Source: Thozetella sp. PMI_491 (lineage: Eukaryota; Ascomycota; Sordariomycetes; Chaetosphaeriales; Chaetosphaeriaceae). From it: a DNA stretch of 64,000 nucleotides. The position numbers and the translations under genes were made by a program. The notes under the pieces are model-generated. The model did not search any database. It was not told the DNA's origin and saw only the letters and a list, made by a program, of their open reading frames with translations. Numbering within the stretch: position 1 is the stretch's first letter; the number at the start of each line of letters is the position of its first letter. The stretch lies in the NCBI GenBank assembly GCA_021432635.1, contig MU270026.1, forward strand, positions 1-64,000, given 5' to 3'. This document shows, one piece after another, positions 1 through 39,365 of this stretch.

Positions 1-726
1 GGTACCTATCTAGAATGCTCCAGAACCGACCAGGACCCCCTGGCCAAGCCCACTTATTAGTAATAAGCTAACATTATTTCAGCACAGCACTGTATGCGGC
101 TAGCTTAGCATGGGTCCGAAAAATTGGATCTGCCTCGCAAGCCAGCTGAAGGAAATTGGGCGGGGGTTGGTTTATCAAGATGCCATCCGCTGAGCATTCG
201 GAAAACAGGTAGACAAGATATGGCCAAAAAATAAGGGAAGGGAGTCGCATCTGTCTCGGGCACAAGTAGAAGTTGTTCTTGGAATGCAGCAGCGACAAGA
301 CGAGGTTTGGAGGGAGACAGGGTGAAATGGCATGCAAAGTTGCCCGAATACTTGAATGCAAACTCATAGAAGCTTATAGTTACGCCGACTCCTATCAGGC
401 CAAGGCTATAGCATACCCACACAGACGAAAGAGGCGCAAAATTGTGATTTCTCTCTCCATCGACCTTGGGCTCATACGGCAGATTCGGTGATATATTATT
501 CGGCAGGTCGGGGGATCGTCGTATGCCTGCCAAGCCGGCCGGTGCCTTTGGCCGGGGCTGTGGCCGCCACACAGCCACCCGCTCCAAGACTTTCTAGCTT
601 AGCCTAGCCAATTGGTTCCCTCCTCCCTTCTGTAAACAGAGCAACCGGCCAAAACGCGAATATTGGTCGACATATGCTTGAAAGTGCATCTTTTCCCATC
701 ATGACCATTTGTTCCGGCCATAATCA
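1..726. other. Intergenic, upstream of HET gene
   Basis: I see no supportable gene here. The open frames on both strands are short, low in recognisable motifs and have no homologue I know. The last 150 bases before the ATG at 727 are probably the promoter and 5' leader of the HET gene. No clear TATA box or repeat was found. Confidence 0.5.
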
Positions 727-2766
727 ATGGCTACCACACTGCTTTCCTCACACGACAGGGGCAACGGCAACCCCGCCCTTTCCACGCCAAGACAGGCCTA
801 TCGCAAACTGAGGAACTTGCTCGGCCGAGACGAGAATGAGGAAGTATCCAGAAAGTCTTTGCTAAGCGACAGGTCGAGCGAGGTAGAGGACCAAACGATG
901 ACGAAGAAGACTCTCTATGAAGATCTGTTCAAGCAAGATGTCATACGCCTTATCAAGCTCGACCCAGAGTCAAGCCTCTCACCGCTTGGGTATACGGTCC
1001 GGGCTTTTGCACTGGCCAAGGCGCCCAAGTATCACGCGTTGAGCTATTGCTGGGGCTCCCCGGACCGCACGAGTTCTATCGACTGCAATGGCTTTCACCT
1101 TTTCATTTCTACCCATCTCAAACAGGGCTTGGCCGAGCTCGCGTCAGTCCCGGAGCTCACGGGCAAGTGGTTCTGGATCGACCAGATCTGCGTGAACCAA
1201 GATGACCCCGCAGAACGCTCTCACCAGGTCATTCTGATGCGCCAGATCTACACCCGGACGCAACAGACCGTCATCTGGCTTGGCCCCGCCGGCCAAGGCG
1301 GTTACGCTGCCGGCTTTGACCTGGCCAAAGACATTTACGGCATGTGCCAGAGCAACCCAACCACGCACAAGCGGATTGGAATGCGCGCCAAGTTCCCGCC
1401 CAAGAATTTCTTGAAGTCGGTAGACGAGGTCCCATTGCTTGGACTGCCCCGGATGTCTACAGACGTGGGCGACGACACACCCTGGGCCGAATTGGCCGTC
1501 CTTTTGGGCAAGCCTTGGTTTGCACGCATGTGGATTCTTCAAGAGGCCGTGCTCGCTAAAAAGACGCCAATGCTTGTCTTCGCACACCAGGCGAGGAGTT
1601 GGATGCACGTCATCGTCGCAGGCGCCTGGGTAGGCCAGACCGGGCCGGCGGTGCGGAAAGCGCTTGGCCTCGATAACCAGCAGATCAACTGCATCCTGTT
1701 CCTGGCGAGCATTTGGCTGACGCAAAACAAATGGGCTATCGCCGCACTCCTCCGCCTCACCCTCCACAACCAAGCGTCGGACCCACGAGATAGAGTCTTT
1801 GCCCTTCTCAACCTCTCTGATGAGGGCCGCTTCCCCGATAGAGTGCACGACCTGCTTAAGCCCGACTACGCCAAGCCGTTGCAGCATGTCTACCGCGACG
1901 CCGTGACAGTCACGATAACCAAAAAATGGGCGAGGCTGCTGCCTCTCCAACTCGTCAACTATCGCCCTGGAGTAAGCCAAGGGCCATCCTGGGTTCCGGA
2001 TTTTCATCATGCGGTGCCTTTCATCAACGCCATTTCGATCGACCATAGCAACAGCGGGGCAACTAGCTATGTACGTGGTTTACAACCTTCGTACCTCGAC
2101 GGCGCTGTTTCCCATGATCCTGCTCAGCCTGACACATTGGTAATCCGCGGCGTTTTAGTAACGCGTGTCTACTGGACAACAGAGCGATACGAGAATGATG
2201 CCGACTACGAGGGCCCGCAACGCATCCCCAGCGCAAGGCAGATCCTATTTTGGATCGACCAGACTGCACGATACATAAGAAGTAGGCGCGGCTCTCTGCA
2301 GAGTTCTGCCTATAAGTCGTTAGGTGATTTTATTCAAGCAGTGCTTAGGCTACTTAGAACTCAAAGCCACGATATGGCCTTGCCAGAGCAAAAGGCGCTG
2401 GAGCTATGGTGCGATCCTCATACCACCGACAGGGAGTTTGCTATGTCATCGTTTCCTAGTCATTGGGAGCGAGGGTACTCTCTCTATCAGGGCTTGATGG
2501 CCGACTTGGAGCCGTTTCGATTTCCACCCGGCAAGATGGTGCTCACGGACGAAGGCAAGGTTGGCATTGTGCCAGAACAGGTCGAGACAAGTGATGAAAT
2601 CGTCGTCTTTCCGAAAGCAGATGCTCCTTTCGTTGTTAGGCCATGGCCTGGACAATCGTCGCATGCCCTTCTCGGGGAGTGTTGCGTCGATGGGTGGATG
2701 AAAAGGGAGGCTTATGACGGGGTAAAAAATGGCACTCTGCAGTACCGTGATTTCCAACTAGAGTGA
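727..2766 (+). CDS. HET-domain (heterokaryon incompatibility) protein
   Basis: This is a single-exon gene of 679 aa. The HET domain lies at about residues 100-260. Its hallmark blocks are YHALSYCWG (about residue 102), WFWIDQICVNQ (about 149) and RQIYTRTQQTVIWLGP (about 172). HET proteins act in the cytosol and trigger growth arrest or cell death when non-self alleles meet. The roughly 100-residue head is polar and probably disordered. The region after residue 270 has the usual HET-protein helical block with a DPRDRVFALL motif (about 352), typical of this large fungal family. I see no NACHT, WD or ankyrin partner domain. The ATG at 727 is the first in frame. Neighbouring genes do not suggest a paired incompatibility locus. 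Family assignment is sure; the specific partner is unknown. Confidence 0.93.
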   Translation: MATTLLSSHDRGNGNPALSTPRQAYRKLRNLLGRDENEEVSRKSLLSDRSSEVEDQTMTKKTLYEDLFKQDVIRLIKLDPESSLSPLGYTVRAFALAKAPKYHALSYCWGSPDRTSSIDCNGFHLFISTHLKQGLAELASVPELTGKWFWIDQICVNQDDPAERSHQVILMRQIYTRTQQTVIWLGPAGQGGYAAGFDLAKDIYGMCQSNPTTHKRIGMRAKFPPKNFLKSVDEVPLLGLPRMSTDVGDDTPWAELAVLLGKPWFARMWILQEAVLAKKTPMLVFAHQARSWMHVIVAGAWVGQTGPAVRKALGLDNQQINCILFLASIWLTQNKWAIAALLRLTLHNQASDPRDRVFALLNLSDEGRFPDRVHDLLKPDYAKPLQHVYRDAVTVTITKKWARLLPLQLVNYRPGVSQGPSWVPDFHHAVPFINAISIDHSNSGATSYVRGLQPSYLDGAVSHDPAQPDTLVIRGVLVTRVYWTTERYENDADYEGPQRIPSARQILFWIDQTARYIRSRRGSLQSSAYKSLGDFIQAVLRLLRTQSHDMALPEQKALELWCDPHTTDREFAMSSFPSHWERGYSLYQGLMADLEPFRFPPGKMVLTDEGKVGIVPEQVETSDEIVVFPKADAPFVVRPWPGQSSHALLGECCVDGWMKREAYDGVKNGTLQYRDFQLE

Positions 2767-21756: not shown

Positions 21757-23001
21757 TTAGAGAATGGTCTTGAAGAGGGTAACTTGCAATGTAGCTGTCT
21801 CCATTGTGCCCTTTGCGTATTTGGATGCGGAGTCATGCCAGCCGAGGGCGCCCAGGGCATTCGTGAAGTTCGCGATCGTGTGGAGGTCGCTGGCGCTAGT
21901 TTGACACCACGGGATGTGGGCCTTGATATCGACTCTTTCGACACCCTGCTTCAGCTCAAACACGAAGCAAACGCCCTTGTGGATTGTCTGAGAGTTCCGA
22001 GGCGCCTTGTTCTGATCCTCAGCCATCCCTCCGCGCTCGTCTAGCAGGAGGTGCCAGACCTTCTCGGCCATCTCCAACCCCTTCATAGACATCTCATCGG
22101 TTTGAGTTCCGCCGAGGGTGCAGGCATCGCGCAAGACGGCCTTCGAATTTGCATTGGCTCGGGCATAGACTTTGACGCGCGCCTTGGATGGGTCGATGCA
22201 GTCGATTGCCACCATCTCCACCGGGCATCGCACCTTAGAAGTGGCTAGATACTTCTGAAGCTTGTCAGCGGCGGCCTTGAGCTGGTTACCGCCGGGCTGG
22301 AGTCCTCGAATCATGTCGAAAGTCAGGTTCTCGGTTGTCTCCCCGGTGGCAAGATGCTTGAGAACAGGGAATAAGTAGGCCTTCATCATGCGCTTCTCGG
22401 CCTTCATATCGAAGGCCACAAAGATCTGGGGTATTCGTTTGACGTGCGGCGGCAAGGCTTCCTTCGCGGCCTTGACCAAGGAGCTGTCGCCCTGAATGAA
22501 CCACTGGTCCATGATCTGTTTGAACCAGCGCAAGTCCACATCGGAAGAAACGCGCTCCAGCATAGGTATGAGGCTAGGAACGATTTCCTCGGCAAAAGGA
22601 TCACTCGGCGTTCCGGCCCTGGGACCAAGTGGCTCAAAGGTGTAGCGCACGACGCTCCCCTTGTTTGTGAAGTTCCAAGACGGCTCGAACGGCGAGCCAT
22701 CGAGGGTCAGTAGAGGTATGACGCCAGCCTCTGCAGTAGGGGGCCCGAAGGTGGGAACCACAGCATCGCGGAACACGTGCATGTGGTCTGCCTGTTGCTC
22801 CGGAGTGTAGGCCTCGGAGCTTTGCAGTAATCCAACCATCAACGGCGCGCATCGGTCCCACCACCAGCGATGGACGGGATCTGCAGGCGGGAGGATGAGG
22901 GTGTCGATGCTTGTTCGAGTGGATACTTTGTCGCTCTCCACAGCGTCAAACGTCTGGGTGAGCGTGATTGGAATGGAATTTGCGTGAATAGTAGGCCCCA
23001 T
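21757..23001 (-). CDS. Aromatic prenyltransferase, DMATS family
   Basis: This is an intronless gene of 414 aa, the family length. Soluble indole/aromatic prenyltransferases with an ABBA barrel transfer dimethylallyl or longer groups from the diphosphate to an aromatic acceptor. The start has HRWWWDRCAPLMVGLL, the common W-W/trp-rich helix. LLTLDGSPFEPSWNF contains the glutamate (about residue 106) that corresponds to the catalytic Glu next to the acceptor in this fold. VRYTFEPLG carries the first diphosphate-binding Arg. Later IPQIFVAFDMK and MKAYLFPVLK match the conserved K/Y diphosphate shield strands. No DDxxD motif is expected or seen. Acceptor and regiochemistry cannot be told. The gene is divergent from the VAO-like oxidase, with 1.15 kb between starts. 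Confidence 0.92.
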   Translation of the reverse strand: MGPTIHANSIPITLTQTFDAVESDKVSTRTSIDTLILPPADPVHRWWWDRCAPLMVGLLQSSEAYTPEQQADHMHVFRDAVVPTFGPPTAEAGVIPLLTLDGSPFEPSWNFTNKGSVVRYTFEPLGPRAGTPSDPFAEEIVPSLIPMLERVSSDVDLRWFKQIMDQWFIQGDSSLVKAAKEALPPHVKRIPQIFVAFDMKAEKRMMKAYLFPVLKHLATGETTENLTFDMIRGLQPGGNQLKAAADKLQKYLATSKVRCPVEMVAIDCIDPSKARVKVYARANANSKAVLRDACTLGGTQTDEMSMKGLEMAEKVWHLLLDERGGMAEDQNKAPRNSQTIHKGVCFVFELKQGVERVDIKAHIPWCQTSASDLHTIANFTNALGALGWHDSASKYAKGTMETATLQVTLFKTIL

Positions 23002-24156
23002 CTTTGCGGCTAGAGTAGAGTAGACAGCTTTGACAGAGGCGTTGAGGATAACCAGGGATCCAGACTCTCTGTTTACAGATGTCGGCTAAAGCGGGAAGAA
23101 ATTGAAAACTGAGGTACGATGACTTTTTAACGGAGAGTTGGTTGTGGGTGCCTTGATGTAGTATCGATGACTCTGGAGCTGGCATTTCTGCTTCTCGCCA
23201 AAGCTTATTCCTTGAAGCTCACCCACCAGTGTCCCCCCTCTCATCGACCTAGAACGGTAGATTAAACGAAACTGAGATGAATAACTATTTCCCCGACAAG
23301 GAATGTGCTTGCTCCGCCATGAGACGGTCCGAAGAGTCTGAAAACGTGGCAGGAGGCATACAGCGAGGCTTCCTAGCTTCACCAGCCTCATAGCACCACC
23401 AGGAGTGAGGAACCCCTAACACGGAGTTTCGGGAACTCCCTTGGACCGAGATTTATTCATCGCGTCGCCTTCGTGTCTCCTCGCCCGATTTGGTACTCTA
23501 CTCATGCCTGATCTTAGCATCAACCACCGCCCGAAGGGGGTTGTCCGGACAAGTACTTAAGTGCAAGGCATATTTTTTATATTTTATTATTGTTTTGTTT
23601 AACGCCTATCTTTTGTTTCTGTCGGTCTCAATTTCTCATTGGACGTATAGTTGGTTTCTTCAGGGATCATTCCAGCAGTTTTAGGTTTGCGGAGGTCCGA
23701 CATCTAGAATGATACTACGTGTTTTGGGCATGCGTTCATCCATTTGGGGCGCAGCATAAGGGCTATGCCACGGGCATTTGATGCACGGCCGTCGCCATCG
23801 GCCAAATGGCTGGCCACCTCCTGCAAGCTACAAGATACTTTACGTCATCACTAACAACTGTCATGGTTCGACTAAAAGCTTCCCAATGCGGCAGTCCAAC
23901 GAGAATTCTAAACCGGCCCGTTATGTGGCGGTGCCGCTATGGGCAGACTTCTCACGCACGGCCATTCTGGGAGTATTTACAGTATTTTTGGTGATAATTG
24001 ACTCAAGTTATAAAAGAACTCACATGAAGCGAGAAATGCCTCCAATAGTCCTCAGAACATCCACTACATGTCTCGGCCTGTAAGGAATCCCCATCCAATT
24101 GCAGCCATTAGTCACACAAATTTTCACGTTTCTTCATTAGTAGCAGAGTCGGGAAA
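23002..24156. promoter_or_regulatory. Divergent promoter region, DMATS / VAO-like
   Basis: These 1155 bases separate two divergently transcribed cluster genes and hold both promoters. They contain no gene I can support. Base composition is AT-rich around 23570-23650. Co-regulation of the pair from this region is plausible but not shown. Confidence 0.5.
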
Positions 24157-26026
24157 ATGTCGCCCTCGGCAACTTCCCCTACCAACGGTGCGAGCTCTGG
24201 GAAAGCTCCGGTGCCCCGCTTTCTTCCTCCCAACCTCACCATCCAAACGTTCCAGGATTTCGCCTCTCGACTCCAAGCCATTGTTGGCAAAGAAAATCTC
24301 TTCATCATCACAGTCGACACCCCCCTCGAGGATGGGGATTACCAGGTTACAGACTGCCAGACTCATGACATGCACTACTTGTACGACCGAGAAGAGTTTG
24401 TGGGCAGCTCTCTCGTACATCCCAAGTCTGTAGCAGATGTCCAAGAGGTAGTCAAGCTCTGCAACGAGTTCGTTGTCCCGGTATGGACATTCAGCAAAGG
24501 TCACAACATCGGCTACGGTGGTGCTGCCCCCCGCGTCAAGGGCAGTCTTGTCATGAACTTGGGCAAGCATCTCAACCGCATCCTCGAGGTCAACGCCGAC
24601 GATTGCTATGCGCTCGTCGAGCCCGGCGTGACATATCTTCAACTGCAGCAGTACCTTAATGACCACAAGCTCAACGATAAGGTCTGGCTGGATTCCCCGG
24701 AGCTGGGATACGGTTCCATTATTGGAAACGCACTTGACCATGGCGTCGGCTTCACGCCCTACGGCGACCACTGGATGATGCACTGCGGTATGGAGGTGAT
24801 TTTGGCCAACGGCCAGGTCGTCCGGACCGGTATGGGGGCTATGCAAAGCCCCGAGGGGCGCGTCCAGGCTAAGAATGGCGTCCCACCGGCGGACCAGCAG
24901 CCTAACGAGTGCTGGCAGCTGTTCCCCTACGGCTTCGGTCCCGTCAATGACGGCATCTTTTCTCAGAGCAATAATGGTATTGTGACTAAGATGGGAGTAT
25001 GGCTGATGCCCAATCCACACGGGTTCGAGCCGTTCATGGTCACATACGAGAAGGACGAGGATCTTGCCGCCGTTGTCGATATCATCCGCCCGCTCCGCGT
25101 GAGCATGGTGCTACAGAACGCCGCCAGCTTGCGGCACATCTCACTTGACGCTGCCCACTACCACCCGCGGACCAAATATACAGACGGTGGTCTAGATGTT
25201 CCGTTGACAGAAGCACAACTTGACGAAGCGGCAAAGATTGTTAACCTTGGACGTTGGGTCTACATCGGTGCCGTATACGGTCCGCCCCCGGTCCGCGAGG
25301 CCCTATTCGGGGTCATCAAGAAAGAGATGCTCCAGGTTCCGGGAAGCCGCTTCTTCAAGCTCGAGGATCGCAAGGAGGAGTTCAGCACGCTGCATTGCCG
25401 GTCTGAGACCATGATGGGTCTCCCTACTTGGGATGAGCTCCGTTGGCTGAACCAGTAAGCACTCGCCTGCTACAGGTTCCCGCCATAATGTCACTAACTC
25501 TATTTGACAGGTGGATCCCGAACTGCACCTTCCTCTCTTTCTCACCCATTTCCAAGGTGGACGGAAAGTCGGCGTGGAACCAATATAGCATGGCCAAGAA
25601 GCGCTTCGCTGAGGCCAAGCTGGACTACTTCGGTATCCTCAGCATTGGTATGAGGGAAATGCGTGAGTATACCATACTAATTGCAGTTTGATTGAGGACA
25701 CCTAGCTAAATATTTGCTCAGATAACGTGATCTGCGTCGTATACAACCGCGAAGATCCCGACATGCGGCGCCGCGCCCAGTGGCTTGTGCGTACCATGAT
25801 CAAGGATTGCGCCGACAACGGCTGGGGAGAGTTCCGCACACACATCGGACTGATGGACCAGGTGGCCAATACATACGACTTTAATGACCATGCTCTTATG
25901 AAGCTGAACGAGACCATCAAGAACGCCCTAGACCCCAACGGTATCTTGGCACCTGGTAAGAGCGGTGTGTGGCCGAAGAGCTACGACAAGAGCAAGTGGG
26001 CTCTAGGGGAGGACTACATCAAATAA
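24157..26026 (+). CDS. Vanillyl-alcohol-oxidase-like flavoprotein, altered active site
   Basis: Exons 24157-25454, 25511-25662 and 25722-26026 give 584 aa. The protein aligns end to end with vanillyl-alcohol oxidase (VAO). Shared blocks include GYGGAAPRV, NAxxxGVGxTPYGDHWMMH, LFPYGFGPxxDGxFSQSN, GIWLMPNP-like and DPNGIxAPGKSGVWP. These FAD oxidases (PP-loop fold) act on para-substituted phenols, often in peroxisomes. By-eye alignment to the Penicillium enzyme keeps the flavinylation base (His73), one phenolate tyrosine (Tyr120) and Arg522. It shows Glu182 where VAO has Asp170, Phe440 where VAO has the FAD-linking His422, and Phe521 where VAO has Tyr503. FAD is therefore probably not histidyl-bound and the substrate may differ. 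The gene is divergent from DMATS and likely a cluster oxidase. Confidence 0.9.
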
Positions 26027-34007: not shown

Positions 34008-37000
34008 CTAGATCAAGGTGTCAAGTACCAGTTTGACATCCTCGACTACGGCTAGGTCCTCGAGGAAAGGGACCAAGTCGGCCAACTCGCCATCATGCGC
34101 ATCTGAAAACCAACTGGTAATTGGTATCGCATGATCTGGGTGGAATAGGTAGGCCGCAGGAGAGTTGTCAATGATAATTGTATCCTTCAGGTCCCGACCT
34201 ATCAGGGCCAGATCTTTGACGTAATTTCCGTTGTGGTTAGAGCAACTCTCTCGGAATAGCCGGTGATGGATGGTTTTGTGGATGTCTAGCTGGTCGAGCA
34301 AAGGGTTGCCGTACTGTGGTGAATTAGCCACCCATAACCAAAGAGTTTAGAGGGCACCCCGCTTACCTTGCTGACAGAGGCTGTAAAGACTACTATTTCG
34401 TAGAGGGCTCCTAGCTTCTTCAGGAAATCGTCAACACCTGGTCGCTTTATTACATATACGTTGTGATAGTTTCCCTCGATTTCTACAGGTATGGTGAAGT
34501 CGGCTTGGTGAAGAATCTAGAGCCGTTAGCTAGGGTAGCTGGTGCCCGGAGGCTAGGGTTTCAAACCTTGAAGGAGCTATGTACGAGGGTTTCGTCGAGG
34601 TCCAAAACCAGACATTTCCTGCCCTTAAGCTCCGGTGATTGCGGGGGGAGGAGAGATTTTTGAGGTTCTTCGGTGGGCGGAGTAGGCTCCGCCTCCGCCG
34701 AGATGGGTTCCGGCTGAGGAGGCGGTACCTTGGGTTCTGTTTCACCTGATATGTCCAGTGTCTTTACCTCCTCCACTGGATGGGGTTTCTCCAATATGTC
34801 AGGCGTCTCCTCGTTCAATGGCCCCTTTCTATCCGATGATGTTCGTTGTGGCTTCTCCGGCACCTGCAATCTTCTCCCAGGCGTCGGGACTTTCTCTGCC
34901 GGGGCCGCCTGCTTTTCCTGTTGCCTGGATGTAGCCTTGGCATGGGGCACGGGAGTCACGTTTCTGGGCTGATGCTCCTCATCGCGGGCGGTACAGCAGC
35001 TAAGGAGCCTGATGAGACGAGCCAGGAAGCCAAGCCTTACCCTCGCGAACGTGTCTTGCGAGCGGCCACTTTCCAGAGCCGGTCGGGCCCTTGCATCTTC
35101 CCCTCCAGGCAGGTCGGCACTGAGATGTCCATCGTGACTCGGTTTAGATTGTTCCCAGCTTACAGGCGGCACCTGGAAGTTTGTCGTACTGTTTTCGTAT
35201 GCATCCACCATTCTCCTGTACGTGTCCCGGTCATCCCTAATTAGCTTAATGCCAGGCGTGACAGCCAAATCATTGGCGTGTTCTTCCCACCATGGCTCAA
35301 AGTTTCCTAGGATGTCTTCCCACTCAGCCTCAGTGTGTCTCAGTATTAATGGCCTCAACACATCTTGAGCCCATGAGGAGCTGTCAATGTCGGAAGCTCG
35401 AGGTTCAAGCAGTTCCTTTAGGGCAACCTCCAGCTTGCTAACGCACGATCCGGACGTTGGAAGCTGTAGTAGAAATTCTGAGGAGAAGATCTCAGATAGG
35501 ACCAACTGAGCTTGCTGGTTGGTTTTAGCGTCGGATCGCAACGCAAATGCCTTATCTATAAGTATTCTGAGCGCCGATGGGATCTCTGCAGCAGCCTGTT
35601 GATTAAGTCTCTGGCCAATTTCTGATAGCTGCTTTGACATCTTGACGCAATAGGCCACAGATCGGGATATCGCTGTTATCGTTCCTACGACCTTCATTTC
35701 CCGCTTGTCGATTACCCACGAGCCCGAGTCTCCGCGTTGTAGCTGTCCTATAACTCCAGTCAGGTACAAATAGTAACGGCGACTTGGTGACGAGGCGGAT
35801 ACTTACCGGAGTCGTGAAGCGCCACCATCCACACTTCTGGTGGGGACAAATAGTCCCCAATCAAAAACGAAGGATTATCAGACACCGACCCTTCGACCAT
35901 GCCGCTAACGCCGCTGTATACGAGAACTTGGCGACCACCTGCAGTATAGGTACTATCTTGGACGTATTCCAGCTCGCTGTCAAGTGTGCTGGTGGCTCTA
36001 GTCTTCAAGAAATTGGGGAGAAGCTTCGACTTGCTTACGGGGAGTAAGCGCCAGTCAGTTCCTTCTATGACATTGGAGTCTGGCGTGAATTCTATTCGTT
36101 TGCGTGCTTCCAAGCTGCTAGGGGAGAGGATTGGGACATCGCCATCCCCAAAGCAGTTCTCTGGCTCCTCCAGGATGTGGTCCGGGACTATAACGAGGGC
36201 CGGCTGGGCGTCATCGGCGAAGTCATCATCCACCAAGGTGTCTGCCGGAGAAGACTGCCCAGCTGCGCTGGCCGTTGTGCTGGTGTCGGTATCCTGCTCT
36301 GGGCGGTGGGCTGTGGTAACAATGTAGTAGTCGCTGTCGACGCGGATTAATCCACCCAGAGTAGATAACCACGAGACATTGGCGCTGGTTGTTGTGTTTG
36401 AAGCCGTTGTTTCCATTGCAATTCCGCAGAATGTCGAAAGGGGTTCTGCCGATTTCTGGTGCATGGCGAGCGGGTACAAGTGATATGACTCCAACGACCC
36501 GGAAGCTCTGAAGACCTTGGTTGTTTCGTAGCACAAGCCAAGTCCCATGTACGATTCCCGGTACCTTTTCTGTGACATGATGGCGTGGAAATTGGAGATG
36601 TCGGACTTCTCGACGAGGCCAGTCACGCAGATATATCTCCTCGGGGCCTTGGCGCCGTCATCGATTAAGACGAGTCTGATACTCAGCTCGGGCAACGGCT
36701 TTCCAAAGAGCAACTTTTGGCTCTTCGCACCGTTCAGAAGCCTCGCAAACTTGCCGAGTTGGCCGACGTCGCTTCCCGCCAAAGACACATCTGTCTCCGT
36801 CGCCCGTAGAAGCCGGCTAGATTTGAACCCGAAGCTCCGCACCCTCTCACGCGGACTAAGAGGTATCTCAACCGAGATATTTGGCTGCTTCAGGGGGATT
36901 TCTGGCCCCTTGCCCTTGTCCGCTGGCCTCTGAAGCACTTTGGTCTCTATCAAAGGCTCGCTAGGACTTTTACCTGCAGATTGTGTCTCGCCAGAGTAGC

Positions 37001-37689
37001 CTGTACTGGCGCCATCGGCACCTGGCTTGGGTATTGGCATTGCGGATGCTAGACTCTCCGCTGCCGGTGTGCCGACGCCTTGGGGGCTTGAGGGCTGCGA
37101 ATCTGCAGAAAGATTGTCCGGTGATCCACCCACAAGACTCGATAAGGGCTCTCCGTTCACTTGGACAGCGGGAGGTGTTATATTTGGCTTAGGTGGCGCG
37201 TCGCTAGTGACATCCACCACTTCGCGCGCACTACCAGTGTCAGGCCTGGCAACGGGATCTCCAAGAGGAGGGTCGGTACGTCGTCCCCCATTCACTTTCG
37301 CTTCTTGGGACGGCCGCATATTACTGCCATTTTTGGGAGTTGATAATGTCCCGTTGGCTACCGGCTGTGGATGAGAGGTGGAATTCTGGGTGAAACGCGT
37401 CTTGGTCTGGCTGGAGGTGGGAAGAAGCCTCTTCCAACCATTTCGCGGCCTCTGGCCCTCCTCTATCTTTGGGGTGGGAATGGAATCAACAGAGCCTCTG
37501 GCATTGCAAACGCCGGCCTCGAAGGCGGCGAGGTCGACTTGCTGGGGTATGTTTTTGGCAATGCCGTCGGGCTGCCTCGGAGGTTAGTCCAGGTTTGAAG
37601 CTGGGAAGGATGCGAGGGGGACCCACCTGAGATGGGGGCAGCGAAAGCCGAGGCTCCTCAACCCTCAATTCGCTTGCGCTGGCTGGCAT
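34008..37689 (-). CDS. Trypsin-like (GDSGSW) domain fused to PSR1-type FCP1 phosphatase
   Basis: Minus-strand exons are 37689-37627, 37571-35807, 35747-34567, 34516-34367 and 34313-34008, giving 1154 aa. The N-terminal 200 residues are Pro/Ser-rich and disordered. Residues about 330-640 look like a degenerate trypsin fold: [16 protein letters not shown] (His region), then, created by splicing, [20 protein letters not shown] (Ser in GDSGSW). A helical part and a polar linker follow. After residue 960 comes a complete CTD small phosphatase (NIF/FCP1) domain: [17 protein letters not shown] with both catalytic Asp, then [49 protein letters not shown] and [17 protein letters not shown]. The GDSGSW motif and DLDETLVH lie in one uninterrupted exon frame, so the fusion is not an annotation error. 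Just before the linker, [14 protein letters not shown] resembles the cysteine-rich palmitoylated head of PSR1. Confidence 0.85.
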
Positions 37690-38056: not shown

Positions 38057-39365
38057 ATGACGAGCAGCATACATCTCCTGCCAGTTCCTCCATCACACAA
38101 TGAACAGAGGGGATTTAGGGAGACGATCACGCAGGGAATCTGGGGCGATCCGAGCTCCGAGAGCCTACTCCCGTTGCTGGAGAGTTACCTCGACCGGTGT
38201 GACCAAGAGCATCGCATCGTTTCCCAGCGTAGCTCGGACATAAGAAAAAAGCTTGATACAGAGCTAGCTCGGGCCATCAGCGCGGCGAAGGCTCAGCCAG
38301 AAGCCCTCAAAGCGACGTTGATCACCGGGCTGGGGCACGACGCACATGATGTCTATCTAGATATGGCAGTGCGGCTCATGCTCTCAACATTTGTACGGTT
38401 GGCAGACACTAGCATCATTAGCGGAACAATATTCCAGCCAAGATGGAGAGACTCCGAAAGTCTTGTGAGCTTCTTGACCCGCGTCTACCCCCAAACCCAG
38501 AGTCCAATAGCACTTGGACAAGAGAGCGGGCGGGTTCAAATATCAAAGTTTTCTGCCGTAAGTCCCGCCCATGTGCTCTTTCGCCGCCATTTTGTCTTTC
38601 TCCGCCATTTTGTCTTTCTGGGCGCATCATTGAAACAGCTTGCCCAGAATTATTTATCACAATTCGCAGGTGTTGGCATAGAGTGGACCCACCACCTTAG
38701 CGATCATCTCACGCTTCTCAGGGGTGCGACCTGGAAGACGCTCTATTTGTTCCAGCACCCGGCTTTTCTCAAAGTCTCATTAGATACTCTCGCTAGAGAT
38801 AGGATAGACACCACACAGTCACTTCCTGAAGCTTTAGGATTGTGAGTATCCTTTGTCACCGTGTGGTATCCAGCCCAAGCCGGGAGTCTAACAGTCTATT
38901 AGAGGATGTCTCCCTCCGAAGCTACTGCGAGAAACCCTCATGACCTTCAATCTTCTCTTCCCCGAGCCAGGAGATGAGGCTTCGCGGGCTATGCTAGTAG
39001 CAGACTGTTCCAAACACGGGCTAGACCCGTACATCCTGACCCGGGATGAACACTACTACAACGAGCATGAGAACCCAACAGATGCCCTAGACCCTACCGA
39101 TGTGCGAGGGCTATATGAGAAGTACCCATACTGGGGGTATCGGCTTTATGAGCTCTGGAAAGAAGCTGATGACCCGACACCAATCACTAGAATTGAGAGG
39201 TGGACAGAGAGCCGGCGAAATCCACGATTTACTTACTGGTGTACTGCCGTCTCTCTAGTGATTGCGGTCTCGTTCGGGGTGGCAGCGACAATTCTTAGTG
39301 CCTTGCAGTTCTGGACTTCTTACTGCTCGTGGCGGGGGTGTGGAGAACCAGGAATAGGAATATAG
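38057..39365 (+). CDS. C-terminally membrane-anchored protein of unknown function
   Basis: Exons 38057-38557, 38639-38841 and 38903-39365 give 388 aa. The first intron (81 nt) is a multiple of three with no stop, so a retained-intron isoform would be 27 residues longer. I recognise a fungal family of unknown function by SSDIRKKLDTELARAI, YLDMAVRLMLSTFVRLADT, GCLPPKLLRETLMTFNLLFP and YPYWGYRLYELWKEADDPTP. A single strong transmembrane helix (VSLVIAVSFGVAATILSALQ, about residues 350-375) is near the end, so the bulk should be cytosolic and tail-anchored. To my knowledge members often lie in accessory regions. It is divergent from the protease-phosphatase fusion by 367 bases, which hints at a functional pair. 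Confidence 0.75.
38584..38619. repeat. 18-bp perfect tandem duplication in intron
   Basis: Two adjacent identical copies of CCGCCATTTTGTCTTTCT lie in the first intron of the membrane-anchored protein gene. Being 18 bases, the duplication preserves the reading frame of the unspliced transcript. Confidence 0.85.

Follow-up and report, generated by a model that had tools for sequence, protein, structure and literature searches.

A family of predicted chymotrypsin-fold protease genes with a divergent partner gene in a fungal genome, one of them fused to a Psr1-type phosphatase

The window studied here comprises the first 64,000 nucleotides of contig C12 of one fungal genome (72.3 Mb in 157 contigs, the single genome studied), and contains at 34008-37689 a gene that joins a predicted chymotrypsin-fold protease to a Psr1/SCP-type phosphatase. 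The larger result lies outside this interval: the protease half belongs to a gene family that is accompanied by a partner gene of its own. We propose, with a probability of about 0.5, that protease and partner constitute a two-gene protease/membrane-partner module in which the captured phosphatase serves as the recognition part, forming a guard or self-recognition switch.

The fusion gene

34008-37689, minus strand: fusion gene, five exons, 1154 aa (spliced model and residue map)
37689-37627, 37571-35807, 35747-34567, 34516-34367 and 34313-34008, minus strand: exons of the fusion gene
35185-36884, minus strand: aa 251 to ~797, made up of the protease region, its N-terminal domain and an extension that looks helical, with the intron 35806-35748 inside
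34663-35187, minus strand: junction of 175 codons, open throughout, from the last protease homology to the first phosphatase homology
34008-34662, minus strand: Psr1/SCP-type phosphatase, aa 972-1154, with the introns 34566-34517 and 34366-34314 inside

An initial annotation, made from the sequence alone, had placed both enzyme parts in one gene, modelled at 1154 aa. The exons that we rebuilt match it exactly, encoding together 1154 aa and a stop in the minus-strand splice model, and the VTTAH motif, the GDSGSW region created by splicing and the phosphatase motif on which it had relied are all present. Each of the four introns (55, 59, 50 and 53 nt) has GT..AG ends and a CTRAY branch-like sequence. 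The two halves are connected, as that annotation had described, by a single uninterrupted exon: exon 3 has no stop between GDSGSW and DLDETLVH. Codon usage along exon 3 favours the used frame over the other two forward frames in 12/12 windows and over all six frames in 11/12 (one reverse frame is slightly higher at 35115), which we take as supporting evidence only, because the training set (stop-to-stop frames of >=300 aa) contains the relatives on C4 and C6 as well as some frames that are antisense. Misassembly is thought unlikely, given that sister loci show other fusions in a single open frame.

Two further features of the window were recorded. A gene with a HET (heterokaryon incompatibility) domain (724-2763, plus strand; Pfam 2.9e-25) lies ~32 kb from the fusion gene at the same contig end, and at 21760-25455 a tryptophan dimethylallyltransferase (1.8e-100) adjoins an FAD-binding oxidase frame, possibly representing secondary-metabolism genes.

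The protease half

The protease half is, on the basis of a structure predicted for a sister protein, of the chymotrypsin fold and trypsin-like. We modelled the sister on C73, in which a single open frame covers the protease region, with the window exon pieces in the alignment; the model is a double-barrel chymotrypsin fold, which carries over to the window through the alignment (a model of window exon 2 made with one homologue had a pLDDT of 34.7 and was unusable). With this fold in the sister and a complete triad in the window, the trypsin-like character first read from the sequence holds, but the label ‘degenerate’ that went with it does not: His443 (36308-36306), Asp527 (36056-36054) and Ser617 (35727-35725) occupy conserved columns of an 11-member alignment. 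Fusion residues 251-763 and the family gene at C6:491k are identical in 160/533 alignment columns (30%), and a phase-1 intron precedes GDSGSW directly in the C6 gene, at the position that it has in the fusion; the C6 gene ends in two transmembrane helices, with no phosphatase.

Profile libraries did not assign the protease part. Pfam gave no match for it in the window exons, Trypsin_2 (PF13365) included; C2 and C37 reached 16.9 and 13.2 bits against a Trypsin_2 cut-off of 27.6, and the family is kept out of Trypsin_2 because its scores lie under this curated cut-off. A PDB profile search with the protease part returned 0 matches up to E 10, NCBIfam likewise 0 (the full table covers the first of two members), and PADLOC 0 of 17 rows. 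There was no Pfam match to S8 or CHAT in the window exons, nor to NB-ARC/NACHT or repeat domains in the window exons or the scanned sister frames.

The phosphatase half and a free psr1-type gene

The residues expected of an SCP-type phosphatase are in place (D992, D994, T1048, K1086 and D1102 in the residue map, forming DxDxT, Thr, Lys and DN). Two exons match Pfam NIF at 5.5e-11 and 7e-33, and the exon with only the first 16 NIF positions scores 0.0011, below the cut-off; in the PDB, the fused phosphatase matches human SCP phosphatases, with SCP2 as the best match (4.5e-65). The names Psr1 and CSP-6, which we take to apply here, come from the NIF, SCP and C4 matches. Across the genome, NIF gave nine exon-level matches at six loci, the window among them.

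A separate psr1, the presence of which the initial annotation had left to be checked, was found: a free psr1-type gene of 499 aa lies on C4. Its protein is 79% identical to the window protein over 185 aligned C-terminal residues, the two introns within the phosphatase domain have the same places and the same phase in both genes, and the C-terminal end is the same, which supports the earlier idea that the fusion arose by joining onto a duplicated psr1; a retrocopy origin was rejected, as both introns are kept. The accompanying premise that PSR1 normally has a short head does not fit this genome, in which the C4 protein has >300 residues ahead of the phosphatase. The C4 protein contains a basic/GFL/CC stretch, KKKKGGFLSIFGCC, that is comparable by eye to the fusion stretch around CC. 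Cysteines 860-861 of the fusion (34998-34993), within the junction, are candidate lipid-anchor residues, their likeness to the C4 stretch being by eye only; a KKKKG stretch is present in the C4 protein and absent from the fusion. Searches of this genome found no second protease–Psr1 fusion.

A protease family with varied C-terminal modules

The protease family has at least 13 loci in this genome: the window, C6:491k, C2, C5, C23, C26, C77, C73, C27, C37, C6:1047k, C41 and C12:637k, the last represented by its N-terminal part only in the stretch studied. Family members were found by a DNA pattern of the GDSGSW region and by single-protein searches, apart from C12:637k, which was reached through the partner gene; the searches score best candidates only, and the count is a lower bound. 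Six of the seven matches to the DNA pattern were accepted (a reversed-pattern control gave two), and the seventh, on C95, was rejected as chance, lying in an unrelated-looking frame. We did not count C62 (E 0.15), C12:1078k (E 0.02), C38 (DUF3295 only) or C37:622k (N-terminal domain only). The C37:622 kb gene (L043 1387-3294) lies ~3 kb from the C37 protease gene on the opposite strand and combines the family N-terminal domain with a stretch that appears zinc-finger-like by eye, without the protease.

The triad His and Asp are kept in 12/12 members (the 11-member alignment, plus C41 by eye). The nucleophile is Ser in seven of the twelve (window included), Cys in four (C2, C73, C27 and C41) and Arg in one (C37), because of which proteolysis may not be the common function of the family.

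As read from their open frames, sister protease genes are joined to different regulators, a feature that the initial annotation had not noted, nor had it noted the conserved divergent partner. On C77, a 577-aa frame running from GDSGS includes a near full-length RNA-binding protein that is related to a free gene on C42 (80% over 112 aa, 53% over 207 aa); presumably it is of the Whi3 type, Pfam giving RRM only. C26 carries a more diverged copy of this module, contained in a single frame of 623 aa (identities of 36% over 148 aa and 49% over 76 aa). C2 has DUF3295 within the protease frame (Pfam 5.6e-11), and its end lies in a neighbouring frame that shares 48% identity (112 aa) with a free C38 gene. 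On C37, a 751-aa frame holds both an F-box (2e-5) and the nucleophile region, with an upstream part on the other side of a stop codon. An F-box on C73 (2.6e-7) and a C2H2 zinc finger on C27 (1.7e-6) each lie in the next open frame, and at both loci the protease and the following domain are likely to be one gene. The C6:1047k gene is extended far at its N terminus by a region of kinase-like appearance to our eye that is without a Pfam match, and no captured domain was seen by eye in C5 or C23.

The divergent partner gene

38057-39362, plus strand: partner gene, head-to-head with the fusion gene
38057-38557 (exon), 38558-38638 (intron), a middle exon, and a last exon within the frame 38892-39362, plus strand: parts of the partner gene

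The last exon of the window partner encodes one transmembrane helix by hydropathy (39249-39305), and the C-terminal exons of the five partner loci examined have one each. The head-to-head neighbour of the C6 gene resembles the window partner at 30% (242 aa) and 65% (143 aa); it was the sole relative found with the window partner's own sequence, the others being found by a profile seeded with the window, C6 and C73 partners. This profile identified head-to-head matches at C2 (6.5e-21), C5 (3.9e-11) and C26 (6.1e-10), the next candidate having an E of 3, and, in further stretches of sequence, partners at C23 (7.2e-14), C41 (1.2e-13), C12:637k (1.3e-12) and C77 (3.4e-10). The partner adjoins 10/13 family loci and is divergent in all ten, a tally in which three loci are the profile seeds and C12:637k was found via the partner; among loci found through the protease the pairing stands at 9/12. 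At C41 the stop-to-stop frames of protease and partner overlap slightly. No partner was found in 2.7 kb at C37 or in 3.0 kb at C6:1047k, and at C27 it lies ~8 kb away, not adjacent. One further partner, at C9:601 kb (L073 1273-2552), is without a protease-family gene in 3.6 kb; the frame adjoining it appears retroelement-like by eye.

Pairwise distances of protease and partner are correlated across nine loci (r 0.81; reached by 1/20,000 permutations), a correlation carried by a few close pairs (window/C6, C5/C26 and C73/C2) because most distances are saturated; C77 is placed differently in the protease and partner trees. A large segmental duplication between C6 and C12 was rejected, since no open frames of the window other than the gene pair have a match in C6:477.5-506.5 kb. 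Pfam gave no match for 12/12 partner pieces, and a PDB profile search of the partner returned a single weak, unrelated match.

Proposed function and alternatives

We propose that the fusion and its divergent neighbour make up a two-gene module. The fusion would encode an intracellular chymotrypsin-fold protease in which a duplicated Psr1/CSP-6-type phosphatase, together with its putative lipid anchor, either took the place of the C terminus or continues from it. The divergently transcribed gene would encode a soluble domain of ~250 residues with a C-terminal transmembrane helix. Protease and membrane partner would form one unit, with both proteins at the membrane, and the captured regulator would be its recognition part—a bait, or a means of placing the protease at a Psr1/Whi2 signalling site—and would thus determine either the target that the unit senses or its location. 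Once the regulator is disturbed, the protease would act on the membrane partner, for which a role as pore or substrate is a guess, and the unit would work as a guard or self-recognition switch.

By analogy, the function of the module is most likely surveillance. We consider this role the most economical because of the fungal protease/pore pairs, the plant decoy pairs and the action of Psr1/CSP-6 with its partner WHI-2 in cell fusion, where self meets non-self; the main rival is a bifunctional protein with an active phosphatase. PMC5800702 and PMC6987382 both describe CSP-6 of N. crassa, and passages of PMC5800702 and PMC3931568 name a further N. crassa paralogue, NCU08948/pph-11. According to passages of PMC6987382, CSP-6 and WHI-2 locate to septa and to the cell periphery, and cell fusion requires them. 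A purely membrane role is counted against, because CSP-6 is reported to be enriched in the nucleus (passages of PMC5800702).

In the main rival, which we judge unlikely, the protease and N-terminal domain target or gate an active phosphatase, and the fusion is a specialised psr1 paralogue in stress or cell-fusion signalling. The catalytic motifs are intact, the match is strong to human SCPs that are active, and over 183 codons the fusion and C4 differ at 34/15/101 sites at codon positions 1/2/3, with a dN of 0.13 (a dN/dS figure is withheld because dS is saturated by NG86 or 1.65 by LWL85). From these comparisons, the fused phosphatase looks maintained under purifying selection, and its conserved motifs suggest that it may be able to signal; cell fusion in N. 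crassa, moreover, requires the phosphatase activity of CSP-6 (passages of PMC6987382). Retention of catalytic motifs under apparent purifying selection also counts against a pure bait. A bifunctional enzyme, however, leaves unexplained the unrelated C-terminal domains of sister genes that have the same partner.

Improbable, in our estimate, is the self-processing sensor-effector put forward by the initial annotation, in which the phosphatase is released when the protease cleaves the linker of its own chain. The complete triad, the long low-complexity linker and the position of the candidate anchor, on the phosphatase side of part of that linker, all speak for such a cut, but no cleavage site was identified, the conserved partner is left unexplained, and C-terminal domains are fused as well to sister proteins whose nucleophile is Cys (C2) or Arg (C37); Cys and Arg nucleophiles weaken self-cleavage by all members. 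Least probable are two overlapping or adjacent transcription units with an incidental long frame, for although an in-frame ATG at 35211 would give the phosphatase a start of its own, the probability that chance alone keeps the 175-codon junction free of stops is ~0.004 in order-1 Markov sequences of its own composition and 0.00035 in those of intergenic composition, the protease half has no in-frame stop ahead of the phosphatase, the four cryptic introns revealed by a motif scan of exon 3 are each a multiple of three in length and leave the frame unchanged, and C77, C26 and C37 have the nucleophile region and C-terminal domain in one frame.

The surveillance module remains our preferred account of the gene pair. 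Its extension to the whole family is doubtful but possible: fungi may have a non-NLR form of surveillance in which the protease gene of divergent protease/transmembrane pairs repeatedly captures copies of core regulators (Psr1, Whi3, DUF3295 and F-box proteins) as integrated decoys that report attack on these regulators or foreign alleles of them. If this is true, the captured domains would point to the pathways under attack or under watch, and each becomes a testable hypothesis.

Comparison with known systems

Provisionally, no description of such a gene pair, with a chymotrypsin fold and exchangeable regulators, was found among the literature matches listed, with subscription journals and preprints outside the search. 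Searches for a GDSGSW fungal family or a trypsin-like/phosphatase fusion found none, none of the titles listed by broader searches describes such a family, and PMC9815663, PMC12881547 and PMC10197012 do not use the word trypsin in their main text. Identity to the chymotrypsin-fold S. griseus protease B, HtrA/DegS and rice NAL1 is 14-17%; unlike these proteases, the family has fused regulators, a conserved neighbour gene and a Cys or Arg nucleophile in several members. With Psr1/Psr2 and CSP-6 (SCP/NIF) the fusion shares the NIF domain and DxDxT, and its CC stretch looks anchor-like by eye; their usual head is replaced by ~800 residues that include the protease.

In fungi, a protease sensor linked to a pore-forming protein constitutes a functional cell-death unit, according to passages of PMC10197012 and PMC12881547. 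These protease/gasdermin clusters (HET-Q2/HET-Q1 and relatives) likewise link a multidomain protease gene, in many architectures, to a second gene. Their published proteases are mostly S8 and CHAT, whereas here a chymotrypsin fold is predicted on the sister protein, and the Pfam and PDB searches revealed no resemblance to gasdermin in the partner, which carries a transmembrane helix; the module is not filed under the published protease clusters because of this prevalence of S8 or CHAT.

Plants have divergent receptor pairs into which copies of targeted proteins have been swapped (passages of PMC4246468). NLR pairs with integrated decoys (RGA4/RGA5 and RPS4/RRS1) resemble the present genes in that a divergent pair has one member with a variable captured domain; in contrast, the pairs described here are fungal, have a protease instead of NB-ARC with no NLR parts found, and have no known attacker. 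Even without an immune role, a two-gene chymotrypsin-fold family with interchangeable regulatory cargo would be a module that the matches listed do not describe; if the role proposed here is true, fungi have evolved a counterpart of the integrated-decoy receptor pairs of plants that makes no use of NLR scaffolds.
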